Below are positions 34,114 to 64,000 of a stretch of 64,000 bases of DNA, in pieces. Origin of the DNA: Bacteroidota bacterium (lineage in GTDB: Bacteria > Bacteroidota > Bacteroidia > Chitinophagales > Saprospiraceae); the NCBI GenBank assembly GCA_016124585.1, contig WGNL01000005.1, positions 1 through 64,000 of the forward strand, read 5' to 3'. A program made the translations under genes and the position numbers. The stretch's first letter is position 1; each line of letters starts with the position of its first letter. Below the pieces are notes generated by a model. It was not told the DNA's origin, did not search any database, and saw nothing but the letters and a program-made list of their open reading frames with translations.

Positions 34114-35064
34114 TTACCTGCGCTTGGTGCGGGAAAAAAGCGTGATTTTTTTAGTGAATAAAAAATCCTTAATGACGCCTGTCCAAGAAGTGTAGGAATG
34201 CAGATTGTCGTAATACTCCGGTGCCATTTTCTTCAGGTGCGGAAGGCGGCTGCCGGGAATGGTCGGGAAGTCGTGGTGCTCGTTGTGGTAGCCGACGTTG
34301 AAAGTGATGGCGTTCAGCGGTCCGTAGTAGGAATAAGTCTCTTGGCCTTCCTGAAAAACATAATGCTCGGAAATGAAATGGCCGGAAGTTGGATGCAGTC
34401 CTCCTGCAAAAATGAGCGAAAGCAACAGGTAAACGATGCCCTGCCAGCCCACTAACGGCAATATCACGGCCATCGCAGCCACCTGAAAAATGATATTGTA
34501 CACCTGCCATTTGTCCGGTTTCATGGGCTTGCCGAGTACGGGGCGCAGGGCGTAGAACACGATTTGGTTGAAAAACCAGAGCACCTTACCCACAAATCCA
34601 CGGAAGATTTTGGTCTCAAAAGCGGATGGGATGTCCATGTCTTCACCGTCCTTGCCTTGGTCCCAGTGGTGGATGGCGTGGTAGGTTTTGAAGGACATTG
34701 CGAAGGGAAAAACGATAGGCAAATTGGCGAAGAAAGCCAGCCAGTTGTTGTACACTTTCTTTTTGAACGCCAGGTCGTGGGTGATTTCATGGATGGCTAA
34801 AAACAGCGCCTGAGCGATAGTCGCACCCACTGCAAACGTCACCAACAAAAATGCCCACCAAGGCAGCATGTGAATGTAAAAAGCAATGGCAAATTGCGCC
34901 AGCACCAACCCGATGGTCACGAATTTCAGGTTTGGATTCACCCCAAAAAGCTTGGTCACTTCCGGGTGCGATTTCAAAATATCCTTCCTGCGCTGGAAAT
35001 GAGGCTCCCGGTCTTCTACCCAATAAAAATCCTGACGTGGTTGTGCTTCGGCTTGTGTACCCAT
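34114..35064 (-). CDS. Sphingolipid (dihydroceramide) delta-4 desaturase-like fatty acid desaturase
   Basis: A 316-residue membrane di-iron desaturase. It carries the eukaryotic DES1/DEGS-type N-terminus (DFYWVEDREPHFQRRKDIL, residues 12-30), which is not part of ordinary acyl-CoA or lipid desaturases. The three histidine boxes are HEITH (92-96), HAIHH (129-133) and NEHHDFP (261-267). Flanking blocks GLHPTSGHFISEHY (222-235) and ETYSYYGPLN (242-251) agree closely with animal DEGS1 as I recall it. The protein ends SRTKRR, like the SRMKR end region of DEGS1. Predicted to introduce the 4,5-trans double bond into a sphingoid base of ceramide in the inner membrane. TAGTTTTG at 35128-35121 is a possible -7 box. 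A TonB-type gene lies 99 bases upstream on the same strand. Confidence 0.85.
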   Translation of the reverse strand: MGTQAEAQPRQDFYWVEDREPHFQRRKDILKSHPEVTKLFGVNPNLKFVTIGLVLAQFAIAFYIHMLPWWAFLLVTFAVGATIAQALFLAIHEITHDLAFKKKVYNNWLAFFANLPIVFPFAMSFKTYHAIHHWDQGKDGEDMDIPSAFETKIFRGFVGKVLWFFNQIVFYALRPVLGKPMKPDKWQVYNIIFQVAAMAVILPLVGWQGIVYLLLSLIFAGGLHPTSGHFISEHYVFQEGQETYSYYGPLNAITFNVGYHNEHHDFPTIPGSRLPHLKKMAPEYYDNLHSYTSWTGVIKDFLFTKKITLFSRTKRR

Positions 35065-38571: not shown

Positions 38572-39159
38572 GAAGTTTTTAAAAGTGATTTAATTGATTG
38601 ATTTTCAATATTATGTAAAATGTGAACCCCAATCGTTTTATGTCCAACAGATAACTAAGGTGTCTGACTTAATAGGTCAGGTTGCACATTTGGACTTTAA
38701 AAAACACATAAGATTTAATCGTTCCCAAAATTTTAAAAGCTCATTTCATAGCTACAATTCTACAACTCACCTCACAGAATAAACAGCCTATCAGTTTGGA
38801 TTTCAAATGGGTAGTTTGAAAGATAATTTTGCAAAAACAAAAAAAAATTAACAGTTCACGCAGCGTTCAGGGTCAAAAGCTGGTTAAGACGGTGATTTAA
38901 AAGTTTACGAAATGCGTAAATGTTAAAAAATCTTAAAAAAATCGGCAATTCTCTCGAACTATTTCATAATTCATTCACTTTAAGTGGATTCCATTTCCCG
39001 AAACAAAAATCAAACACGCTCAAAAATTATCCGACATCAGAAAATAATTAATACGGACACAAGGCTTTTGATTCCTTTTAGTTTTGTTAGCGATTTTTGC
39101 CACACAGCAATTTTAGAACAAAAAAACAATCACTGCCTGGCCGCACCAAGCATTTTTCA
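38572..39159 (+). promoter_or_regulatory. AT-rich intergenic region with a candidate promoter for the nucleotidyltransferase-flippase gene
   Basis: 588 bases without a supported gene, divergent between the Spy-like gene and the fusion gene. TTTTG (39066-39070), 21 bases, then GATTTTTG (39092-39099) resembles the phylum promoter with one mismatch in the -7 box, about 60 bases before the ATG at 39160. TAGTTTTG at 39079-39086 is an alternative -7. The remainder is AT-rich and shows no clear palindrome or tandem repeat. Confidence 0.35.
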
Positions 39160-40947
39160 ATGAATTCAATTTCGCTTCAGCCAGAGGCTACCTTCACAGA
39201 AAATCCTATTGCCCCGGGTAATAAACCTGTAAAAAATGCCGTGATTCTTGCAGCAGGCAAAAGCTCCCGGTTCCGTGACCAAGGGGTCTTAAAGCCCAAG
39301 GTGCTGATGCAAGTGGGTGGTTTGGGCCTTCTCGAAAGAGCCATCCTAACACTTCATTCGACTGGCATCGAGCATTTCCGCATAACGGTTGGAGCCTACA
39401 AGGAGCAGGTTTTGGCGGAAATGAAAAGCCTCCCCCGTCTGCAACACATTGATATTGAGTATGTTGAATGTGATGACTACGAACTCGGAAATGGCGTGAG
39501 CTTCGCTGCTGGTGCAGCTGGTTTCACGGATGCGTTCTTGCTCACCATGTCCGACCATATTTTCGCACCGGAGACTATTGCGGATTTTGTTCAAAAAACA
39601 AGTGTAACGCCGCATCTACCAGCACTCGCCTGCGATGCTGACCTCGAAAATATTTTCGACATGGACGATGCCACCAAAGTGGCCAGTCGTGACGGTTTCA
39701 TCCACAACATCGGCAAGGAAATCAAGGAGTACGATTTAGTGGATACTGGGCTTTTTTATTTTCCCAAAGGCTACGGAAGCACCATTGCTGAGAAGGCAAA
39801 TCAAGGTGCACACTCTGTCAGCGGCATCATTCAACATTTCATTGATGGCGATGGCGTTCGTGCAGTGGTGCTCGACAATGCGCAATGGCAGGACGTGGAC
39901 GACCCGAATATGAAACAGGAAGCTGAGCGTCGCTTGAAAACCATGTTCAAAACGCCCGAAGCTGCTAGGTTGATAAAACCTAAAGAACAGGAAGAACAGC
40001 AGAAGAGTAGCTTCATCGCCAAGTTCAAAAAATACCTGCCTTACATTCTGGGACTTGGTATCCTAGCATCATTGGTATTTTACGTGCCATTCGACTTGGT
40101 AGGTAATGCGTTCACACAATTTGGCAACAAGGTTTTCCTCGTTTTTTCAGTAGCAATACTCTGGATTTTGACCAATACGCTCTGCACATTCACGCTAGTT
40201 CGGGGCAAAGTGCCATTTTGGGATGTTTTGTACAACCAAATAACAGGCGAGGGTTACAATACTATTCTGCCGCTGGCCAGTGTTGGTGGAGAGCCATACC
40301 GGATTCAGCACCTTTCGAATTGGATTGACATCCACGATGCCAGCCGTGCCGTGCTGGCCGACCGTTTGATCCGGGCCATCACAGGGATATTGTTTGCAGC
40401 TACTTGCCTTTTCATCACTTTGGCCATTGTGAAACTTAGCAGTGCAACCTTTATTACTGTCATGCTGTTGGCAGTTGCACATCTTGTTGTCGGGATTGGT
40501 ATTACTTGGGTTTCACTTTCTCAAGCGCCTTCAAAATTGGTGAACGTGGTGCTGAAAAAGCTAAAAATGGTGGAAGACTATCGGAACGAACCAATTCCGG
40601 CAGGCCGCTTTTTTAAGGCGATGGGCTACAAATTCATCAGCCGCATTTTCAGTTTGGTAGAAATGTATGCCATTTTCAACCTGCTTGGCTTTGATCCTTC
40701 GATGGGCGATATTATCACAATTGCCGGATTCATTGCGGTAAGTGCATCCGTGTTTTTCATGCCTGGCGGCCTCATCGTCAATGAAATCGGGATTTTGTTT
40801 GCCCTGAATATTTTGGGCTATTCTGACACAGTCATATTCAATTTCAGCCTACTACGCCGAACCAGCGTCATTTTCTGGGCGCTTTTAGGTGTTGCTTTGC
40901 ACCTTTCCTTCACCGTGTTCAAGAAATTGGATTTCAGCAGAGCCTAA
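39160..40947 (+). CDS. Nucleotidyltransferase (IPCT-like) fused to a UPF0104/LPG-flippase membrane domain
   Basis: A 595-residue two-part protein. Residues about 25-255 are a sugar-nucleotide-type transferase with VILAAGKSSRF, LKPKVLMQVGG, TMSDHIFAPE and DDATKVASRDGFIHNIGKEIKEYDLVDTGLFYF. The last block resembles inositol-phosphate cytidylyltransferase (IPCT), the enzyme that makes CDP-inositol. Residues about 285-590 hold seven or eight transmembrane segments with LPLASVGGEPYRI and PGGLIVNEIG, as in the UPF0104 / lysylphosphatidylglycerol-synthase flippase domain. Together this suggests activation of a phosphorylated headgroup and handling of the product lipid in the membrane. IPCT is known fused to a CDP-alcohol phosphatidyltransferase; here the partner differs. 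ATG at 39160 preferred over a TTG at 39097. Confidence 0.75.
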   Translation: MNSISLQPEATFTENPIAPGNKPVKNAVILAAGKSSRFRDQGVLKPKVLMQVGGLGLLERAILTLHSTGIEHFRITVGAYKEQVLAEMKSLPRLQHIDIEYVECDDYELGNGVSFAAGAAGFTDAFLLTMSDHIFAPETIADFVQKTSVTPHLPALACDADLENIFDMDDATKVASRDGFIHNIGKEIKEYDLVDTGLFYFPKGYGSTIAEKANQGAHSVSGIIQHFIDGDGVRAVVLDNAQWQDVDDPNMKQEAERRLKTMFKTPEAARLIKPKEQEEQQKSSFIAKFKKYLPYILGLGILASLVFYVPFDLVGNAFTQFGNKVFLVFSVAILWILTNTLCTFTLVRGKVPFWDVLYNQITGEGYNTILPLASVGGEPYRIQHLSNWIDIHDASRAVLADRLIRAITGILFAATCLFITLAIVKLSSATFITVMLLAVAHLVVGIGITWVSLSQAPSKLVNVVLKKLKMVEDYRNEPIPAGRFFKAMGYKFISRIFSLVEMYAIFNLLGFDPSMGDIITIAGFIAVSASVFFMPGGLIVNEIGILFALNILGYSDTVIFNFSLLRRTSVIFWALLGVALHLSFTVFKKLDFSRA

Positions 40948-62858: not shown

Positions 62859-64000
62859 ATGACAAAACAAAATAACAGTCAGGTAGAAATGGTCAATCAG
62901 TTGGCCTTTAGACTAAGAGAAATGGGCGTGATACACTTAAACCTAGATGATGAACCGATGTCCGACAGGCGCATCATAAATCTGGAAGGTAGGGAAGTGC
63001 TTAATTTTTCTTCATGTAACTATGTCGGCCTAGAGGCTGATGAGCGACTTAAGCGTGCCGCAATCGATGGTATTGAAAGATTTGGAACGCAATACTATTG
63101 TGTTCGTGCCTACACTTCATTGAATTATTATGAAGAATTGGAAGCACAAATGAAACAGATATTTGGATTTCCAGCGATTGTGATGCCTACAACAATGTTA
63201 GGCCACCTTTCTTGTTTGCCATCTTTGGTCAGTAGTAATGATGCTGTAATCTTGGACCACCAAGTTCACACTAGTGTCATAATGACTTCTAAAATTTTGA
63301 AGGCTAATGGCACTCATCTTGAAATGATTCGCCATAATAGGATGGACTATTTGGAATCCAGAATTCAGAAGCTGAAACAAGATTATCGGAAGATTTGGTA
63401 CCTGGCAGATGGTGTTTACTCGATGTATGGAAATTTTGCACCTATGGGTGATTTGTACGAGTTAATGAACAGATATGAACAATTCCATTTATACATCGAT
63501 GATTCTCATGGAATGAGTTGGACAGGAAAGCATGGTTCAGGTTCTGTTTTGGAGCGTATGCCATTTCATCCTCAATTGATTTTGACCACTTCATTGGGCA
63601 AGGCATTTGGGGCATCCGGTGGGGTAGCCGTTTTTCATGATCAACATACTCGAGAACTGGTAAGGAATACTGGGAGTCCACTTATTTTTACGGGGCCGCT
63701 TCAACCTGCTACTTTAGCTGCTGCCGTTGCCTCTGCTAAGATTCACCTTAGTGATGAGATCGTTGGGATGCAGGAAAAGCTAAAATCAAACGTTGACTAT
63801 TTTACTGCTAAAGCAAAGTCTTTGGATTTGCCATTCATTAGCAAAGGTGATACACCCATCTTTTTCCTTGGAGTTGGGCGATTTGAAGTGGGTGGTAAAC
63901 TGGTCAAGGCACTCCTTGATGCTGGCTTCTTCTCATGCATCGCATGTTATCCTAGTGTCCCTTATAATAATACCGGTATTAGGTTCTTGTTGACACTAAA
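62859..64000 (+). CDS. Alpha-oxoamine synthase (AOS) family PLP-dependent enzyme, 3' end outside the window
   Basis: The frame runs from ATG 62859 (MTKQNNSQVEMVNQLAFRLREMG) and is still open at the window end (380 codons). It is a fold-type I PLP enzyme of the AOS/8-amino-7-oxononanoate-synthase/serine-palmitoyltransferase class. LNFSSCNYVGLEADERLKRAA and RFGTQYYCVRAYTS match the opening of the fold, YIDDSHGMSWTGKHGSG carries the pyridine-N Asp and His, and TTSLGKAFGASGG carries the PLP lysine. These enzymes condense an amino acid with an acyl-CoA. The QYYCVRAY block differs from the GSGG/GTRN sequence usual in KBL, BioF or Spt, so the substrate is open. It is divergent from paaABC. Confidence 0.8.
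   Translation, partial: MTKQNNSQVEMVNQLAFRLREMGVIHLNLDDEPMSDRRIINLEGREVLNFSSCNYVGLEADERLKRAAIDGIERFGTQYYCVRAYTSLNYYEELEAQMKQIFGFPAIVMPTTMLGHLSCLPSLVSSNDAVILDHQVHTSVIMTSKILKANGTHLEMIRHNRMDYLESRIQKLKQDYRKIWYLADGVYSMYGNFAPMGDLYELMNRYEQFHLYIDDSHGMSWTGKHGSGSVLERMPFHPQLILTTSLGKAFGASGGVAVFHDQHTRELVRNTGSPLIFTGPLQPATLAAAVASAKIHLSDEIVGMQEKLKSNVDYFTAKAKSLDLPFISKGDTPIFFLGVGRFEVGGKLVKALLDAGFFSCIACYPSVPYNNTGIRFLLTL

Follow-up and report, generated by a model that had tools for sequence, protein, structure and literature searches.

A bacterial homologue of the eukaryotic dihydroceramide Delta4-desaturase in a genome of the Saprospiraceae

Bacteroidota are known for saturated dihydroceramides. We have analyzed a stretch of 64,000 nucleotides from a member of this phylum (family Saprospiraceae; contig WGNL01000005.1 of assembly GCA_016124585.1), here called the window, in which one ORF resembles DEGS, the eukaryotic dihydroceramide desaturase by which animals and plants introduce the double bond of ceramide. 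The locus raises the question of whether this bacterium has a genuine enzyme of that family, with a precursor for it to act on, and how bacteria and eukaryotes come to share such a gene. A first-pass annotation had marked the ORF, quoted its characteristic blocks, and read it as a homologue of the Delta4-desaturase that implied gene transfer or a deep shared origin. The ORF was borne out and lies on the minus strand, where it begins with ATG and encodes the 316 residues of protein P0001 (Table 1); frame 1 of the plus strand contains three stops across the same interval. The quoted blocks all occur letter for letter in P0001: DFYWVEDREPHFQRRKDIL, HEITH, HAIHH, NEHHDFP, SGHFISEHY and ETYSYYGPLN.

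P0001 has matches well over the cut-off to two Pfam models, Lipid_DES (PF08557; 61.7 bits, E = 4.3e-17, cut-off 23) and FA_desaturase (101.2 bits, E = 1.1e-28, cut-off 29.7), the latter with all three His boxes. Lipid_DES, an N-terminal model of sphingolipid Delta4-desaturases that takes its name from DEGS1-type enzymes, matched P0001 alone in a profile search of the source genome. No NCBIfam family was matched over its cut-off; the best, DesB, scored 26 bits, and DesA 17.5 bits, against an equivalog cut-off of 500. Invariant residues in Table 1 refer to an alignment of 56 sequences, namely P0001 and 55 of the best 80 of at least 578 relatives. Human DEGS1 was represented by a provisional sequence, which is consistent with the variant table of PMC10940770 at all 8 positions compared and is 45.4% identical to P0001 (142 of 313 aligned positions). 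Five of the six residues affected by DEGS1 missense variants in that table are kept in P0001 (N113, H132, N189, N255 and A280), the published variant of H132 falling on H133 of P0001; the sixth, L175, is V. The AlphaFold2 model of P0001 has a mean pLDDT of 93.5 and a pTM of 0.90. A search of solved structures with this model gave three matches within E 0.001, one unnamed chain in each of two FtsHi motor complexes and AlkB, and a search by sequence gave no solved relative at E up to 1. P0001 is a true DEGS-family protein in a bacterium.

The GC content of the gene (49.6%) lies within the span of the seven other genes measured (46.9–51.8%), although among these eight genes its third-position GC of 63.7% ranks first (50.3–62.0% in the rest). 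Synteny of the two genes upstream of it extends to three further assemblies of the Saprospiraceae (L059, L060 and L067). Because the GC content is in range and the synteny is shared, we regard P0001 as native and reject contamination. A viral source was likewise rejected: 29 pattern matches in viral contigs yielded no confirmed relative, and the five best matches in a viral structure library are distant desaturase-like proteins of 12–15% identity. The neighbours of P0001 in the window include no clear sphingolipid gene; the last gene of Table 1 may, at a guess, be linked to sphingolipid head groups. At the far end of the window, positions 62979–64000 (to 64049 in the contig) encode a PLP enzyme of the SPT/BioF superfamily, whose best NCBIfam match is PRK07505 (260 bits, cut-off 342).

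Table 1. Features of the P0001 locus, in window coordinates
Feature	Position	Strand	Evidence or remark
DEGS-type sphingolipid desaturase gene P0001, 316 aa	34114..35064	-	ORF and Pfam matches
Lipid_DES N-terminal domain, residues 10-45	34930..35037	-	61.7 and 65.5 bits, cut-off 23
His box 1, HEITH, residues 92-96	34777..34791	-	H92, E93 and H96 invariant in 56 aligned sequences
His box 2, HAIHH, residues 129-133	34666..34680	-	H129, H132 and H133 invariant in 56 aligned sequences
His box 3, HNEHH, residues 260-264	34273..34287	-	invariant in 56 aligned sequences
GHFISEHY, residues 228-235, subfamily signature	34360..34383	-	common to eukaryotic DEGS rows and Myxococcota branch
Outer-membrane beta-barrel protein, 99 bases upstream of P0001	35164..38010	-	same strand as P0001; syntenic in L059, L060 and L067
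Nucleotidyltransferase with LPG-synthase-type membrane domain	39097..40947	+	NTP domain 31-33% identical to the L093 and L095 NTP transferases beside SPT

The gene is not singular to this genome but widespread in bacteria of several phyla. Lipid_DES was found in 20 of 120 genomes sampled from the Saprospiraceae and in 40 of 395 sampled from the phylum Bacteroidota (30 loci of these 40 genomes were compared with P0001); it is absent from all 14 named control genomes. The Hyalangium locus L100 belongs to genome G513, in whose phylum 195 genomes were sampled; Lipid_DES matches 36 of these at 0.001 and exceeds its cut-off in 34. G513 and 11 others of the 36 have two matches, one second match being below the cut-off. 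The best match in ten of these 12 two-match genomes contains GHYISEH (L162–L171). A contig scan confirmed at least 578 relatives among 595 stretches, and the best 80 by score were used. Among the matches listed, the nearest named relatives of P0001 are Saprospiraceae MAGs (88% and 86% identity).

These relatives split into two groups, which we call A (that of P0001) and B. All 8 further group-A rows examined have the signature GH[FY], as do all 6 from the Myxococcota branch and all 4 provisional eukaryotic rows; all 18 group-B rows examined have G[AG]RWIQ. Another 37 loci comprise 16 with GH[FY]ISEH, 16 with GARWIQEH, one with GHFIHEH and four with neither pattern. The only congener of the source organism among the sampled Saprospiraceae, G453, has a desaturase of group B (L149:5388-6377, 50.6% identical to the reference of that group), while its SPT shares 77% identity with that of the source genome, so the desaturase has probably been exchanged or differently lost. 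Group-A genes also occur on contigs labelled Acidobacteriota (L063, 3828 bases), Verrucomicrobia (L077, 7615 bases) and Rickettsiales (L095, 16933 bases). All three fall among Bacteroidota rows of the tree, and either transfer or wrongly binned contigs would account for this.

Trees were built from 66, 50, 36 and 61 hand-chosen rows, with eukaryotic DEGS represented by the four provisional sequences. The long-branched L120 was dropped after the first, 66-row tree, the fragment L124 is in no tree, and for the outgroup tree L054 gave no frame with the required motifs. The eukaryotic sequences form a clade (98/91 with 50 rows, 95/89 with 61 rows), which joins the Myxococcota and one member of the Bacteriovoracaceae (99/97 and 96/93). 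Group A is itself a clade (100/99 and 100/100) and is united with the eukaryote–Myxococcota clade, apart from group B (100/100 and 96/89). The phylogeny proposed in the first-pass annotation thus places P0001 outside the ordinary acyl-lipid desaturases and within a DEGS superclade (100/100), with the root against the outgroup not set. The five other desaturases used as outgroup have long branches, stand apart and do not form one clade, and rooting on them leaves the split of group A, group B and the eukaryote–Myxococcota branch unsettled. The midpoint root of the 61-row tree falls on two long rows joined to each other (L172 and L189) and may be an artefact. Since the root is not set, the nesting of eukaryotes in bacteria rests on a midpoint drawing and four provisional sequences.

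Alternative placements were compared by AU tests, for groups that were all named after the tree was seen. Holding the four eukaryotic rows together with the nine rows of the nearest clade (P0001, L059, L061, L063, L067, L070, L077, L082 and L085) costs 75.5 log units (p = 1.4e-63), and a recent transfer between eukaryotes and the lineage of P0001 is rejected on this ground. Placing the eukaryotes with all group-A rows (p = 0.043), or group A with the Myxococcota to the exclusion of eukaryotes (p = 0.042), is rejected weakly; moving L097 out of the eukaryote–Myxococcota clade is not rejected (p = 0.22). Of the two origins suggested by the annotation, the deep shared one fits. One history that we put forward tentatively, as rather less likely than not, is that the Delta4 step was a bacterial invention, that several phyla make true sphingosine-type ceramides by means of DEGS enzymes whose genes lie among their ceramide genes, and that eukaryotes may have obtained DEGS from a bacterium near the Myxococcota/Bdellovibrionota branch. 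Bacterial CerS and CerR, for their part, are said to lack eukaryotic orthologues in the sections available of PMC11324152.

A desaturase of this kind needs a precursor, and the annotation had proposed a search of the genome for sphingolipid genes, the lack of which would have told against its reading. Such genes are present, on contig C23, and P0001 (contig C11) is not beside them. Serine palmitoyltransferase (SPT, P0002) exceeds the cut-off of NF047600, the SPT family of the CFB group (663.2 bits against 640), and its best solved match is SPT 8guh/3a2b (512 bits). Directly downstream are a GNAT protein (PF00583, 36.6 bits, cut-off 20.7) and then an NAD-epimerase protein, for which we infer roles in ceramide synthesis. 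Upstream of P0002 are an Mrr gene and a PAP2_3 protein; the Mrr-type restriction endonuclease gene (L139:7733-8608) stands between the PAP2_3 gene and SPT. The names CerS and CerR for the GNAT and epimerase proteins are tentative: in the passages available, Caulobacter cerS is in another operon than spt (PMC11324152), and the reductase described from Bacteroides does not cluster with SPT (PMC9278070). When 15 AOS-type enzymes were placed in a tree, 9 of its 12 inner branches were left open.

With no such gene beside P0001 itself, the sphingolipid reading rests on linkage in relatives rather than on the window. The best 80 of at least 578 loci were scanned, many of which end at contig ends. An SPT-like enzyme of at least 49% identity lies within about 8 kb of the desaturase in L091, L093 and L095 (group A) and in L118 (group B), the SPT of L091 being cut by the end of the locus; L075 and L113 have more distant superfamily enzymes nearby (30–32% identity). 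In the three group-A loci, SPT is accompanied by GNAT and other lipid genes. L095 has an SPT over the cut-off (641 bits), adjoined by a relative of inositol-phosphate synthase that is below its own cut-off. The desaturase of L093 stands between a PLD-type protein, which precedes it, and a CDP-alcohol phosphotransferase, which follows directly, in a neighbourhood of SDR, GNAT, NAD-epimerase and SPT genes (the last at 603 bits, cut-off 640), with ketosynthase-like and dehydratase-like genes identified by reading. On its other side are genes for phosphoenolpyruvate mutase, phosphonopyruvate decarboxylase and 2-aminoethylphosphonate transaminase, all of which pass one or more NCBIfam cut-offs. The same phosphonate genes, by reading, adjoin the desaturase in L091 (1392-9836) as in L093 (583-9859). 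This suggests a phosphonate head group on the ceramide at L093 and L091, and a guess at the product of L093 would be ceramide aminoethylphosphonate. The tightest run, in G432 of the Saprospiraceae, comprises SPT, GNAT, desaturase, NAD-epimerase and PgpA genes that overlap or are separated by a 3-base gap. Its desaturase is of group B, not of the subfamily of P0001; its SPT scores 638.4 bits, just under the cut-off, and its GNAT has no Pfam match but is 47.9% identical to that of the source genome. DEGS-type desaturases are, in some bacterial phyla, linked to sphingolipid genes.

Enzymes of the DEGS family are di-iron proteins that remove hydrogen at C4 and C5 in an O2-dependent reaction, with electrons supplied by cytochrome b5 and its reductase. 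P0001 is probably a dihydroceramide Delta4-desaturase that makes a sphingosine-type ceramide from the product of the SPT, GNAT and epimerase proteins. It belongs to the integral-membrane desaturases with a di-iron centre and would bind in the membrane a dihydroceramide produced by the SPT of the same genome together with the GNAT-type protein (putative CerS) and the NAD-epimerase-type protein (putative CerR). The His boxes would hold the iron atoms at which O2 is activated, and two hydrogens would be taken from C4–C5 of the sphingoid base to give the sphingosine-type ceramide, a carrier supplying the electrons. That P0001 is a homologue of the Delta4-desaturase, as first proposed, has the support of the tree and the pathway genes; what is inferred is the Delta4 reaction itself, with its substrate, the site of the new double bond and the electron donor.

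An enzyme of the same family, human DEGS2, has C4-hydroxylase activity in the account available in PMC6920741, and P0001 might similarly hydroxylate C4 of the sphingoid base, alone or besides desaturating it, to give a base of the phytosphingosine type. The two Lipid_DES matches in 12 of the 36 genomes mentioned above mean that members of the family may have divided such work. The one point on the other side is the 45% identity of P0001 to DEGS1; because of this resemblance we favour desaturation and consider hydroxylation unlikely.

A second alternative concerns the substrate, which could be N-acyl capnine, a sulfonolipid that corresponds to dihydroceramide but is a sulfonate. Cysteate fatty acyltransferase (CFAT) is an early enzyme of sulfonolipid synthesis, and a 4,5 double bond occurs in flavocristamide A. 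The source genome encodes a CFAT (P0004, 591 bits to 28eh), and flavocristamides are described as sulfonolipids of a marine Flavobacterium in the part of PMC10191378 available. The distribution of Lipid_DES across genomes bears on both substrates. Of the 120 Saprospiraceae genomes, 20 have Lipid_DES, 30 have SPT at E 1e-150 and 15 have both (Fisher p = 2.4e-7); SPT is present in 15 of 20 carriers versus 15 of 100 non-carriers. Five carriers lack SPT at this threshold (G397, G399, G412, G468 and G505), but four of them have an enzyme 46–47% identical to the source SPT, with SPT as the best NCBIfam match (468–487 bits against 640). One of the four was examined and its best solved match is also SPT; an epimerase gene is nearby in three of the four, with a GNAT gene too in one. 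In G412 (89% complete) a search made for CFAT showed no SPT-like enzyme at 1e-50. Such divergent enzymes were sought among Saprospiraceae carriers only. In the class, 15 of 98 genomes have Lipid_DES, 18 have SPT and 9 have both (p = 8.6e-5), which corresponds to Lipid_DES in 9 of 18 genomes with SPT versus 6 of 80 without it. These Fisher values overstate significance, because the genomes are related. Among the 297 genomes outside the class no association shows at the threshold used (SPT at 1e-150 in 3 of 25 carriers versus 30 of 272 others), and divergent SPT is poorly counted there because hits at 501–526 bits straddle the threshold. Of the 20 genomes of chosen loci, 19 match NF047600 at 1e-100, two over the cut-off, but control genomes such as E. 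coli match at that level too; the match of Aquirufa, one of the 19, scores 339 bits and is within range of second-best, non-SPT-like hits.

CFAT is found in 91 of the 98 class genomes, including 15 of 15 carriers, so sulfonolipids are also available there as substrate. Lipid_DES occurs in 9 of 11 class genomes with SPT and CFAT, in none of the 7 with SPT only and in 6 of 80 with CFAT only. The six, which have CFAT but no SPT over the threshold, speak for a sulfonolipid, and the 0 of 7 counts against a simple link to SPT, although we suspect that some of these seven are anaerobes, unable to use an O2-dependent enzyme. On the other side, carriage in the class tracks SPT and not CFAT (p = 0.59, at low power since CFAT is near-universal), and CFAT is found in 12 of 20 Saprospiraceae carriers (in one at 49% identity) against 15 with SPT and 4 with the divergent SPT-like enzyme. 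Three carriers (G396, G424 and G484) have SPT over the threshold and no CFAT; outside the class CFAT at 1e-110 is present in 8 of 25 carriers and 17 show none. No CFAT was seen in the scanned neighbourhoods of relatives, many of which end at contig ends. We judge a sulfonolipid, too, an improbable natural substrate and retain dihydroceramide as the preferred one. That P0001 is an ordinary acyl-lipid or fatty-acid desaturase merely resembling DEGS, as membership of the general FA_desaturase superfamily might allow, was rejected as very improbable: the DesB cut-off is missed while that of Lipid_DES is clearly passed, relatives are linked to SPT, the outgroup desaturases stand apart in the tree, and none of the four other FA_desaturase loci of the source genome (L054 and L056–L058) matches P0001 by blastp at 1e-3.

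Sphingosine-type ceramides may not be confined to eukaryotes. If the reading of P0001 as a Delta4-desaturase is true, the presence of DEGS among bacterial ceramide genes would mean that bacteria are able to make a lipid used as a eukaryotic signal, and bacterial DEGS would be a candidate source for one eukaryotic lipid enzyme. The runs of SPT, GNAT, desaturase, epimerase and head-group genes are compact enough for rebuilding in laboratory hosts. Among the matches listed for the open-licence literature, no report of a bacterial DEGS was recognized by title or the start of the abstract, which is weak evidence of novelty; the word desaturase is absent from the main text, so far as available, of a paper on Black Sea sphingolipids (PMC11334938).

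Compared with known systems, P0001 shares a fold class with AlkB (8sbb_A; E 3.7e-4, TM 0.51 to the model) and more weakly with SCD1 (4zyo; E 0.40, TM 0.37), but both act on other substrates and are 13–14% identical to it. The ceramide genes of Caulobacter (spt, cerR and cerS) are alike in combining SPT with an N-acyltransferase-type and a dehydrogenase-type gene; unlike the systems described here, the five ceramide genes named in the available part of PMC11324152 (aasR, cerR, acpR, spt and cerS) include no DEGS. The same source names a DesA-type protein, CC_0202, for hydroxylating the amide-linked acyl chain. Group-B Lipid_DES proteins, found in Bacteroidota, Myxococcota and Bdellovibrionota, have the same Pfam pair, the His boxes where examined, and linkage to SPT in G432 and L118. 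They differ in forming a separate clade, in having G[AG]RWIQ in place of the GHFIS of P0001, and in being about 40–46% identical to it (25 phylum loci outside group A). The closest comparison is with DEGS1 (DES1; EC 1.14.19.17), which has the three His boxes, the GHF and ETYSYYGPLN blocks and a length similar to that of P0001. P0001, unlike DEGS1, belongs to a bacterium, which has no ER, and to a group that forms a separate clade (100/99), and its relatives adjoin bacterial-type SPT, GNAT and epimerase genes.
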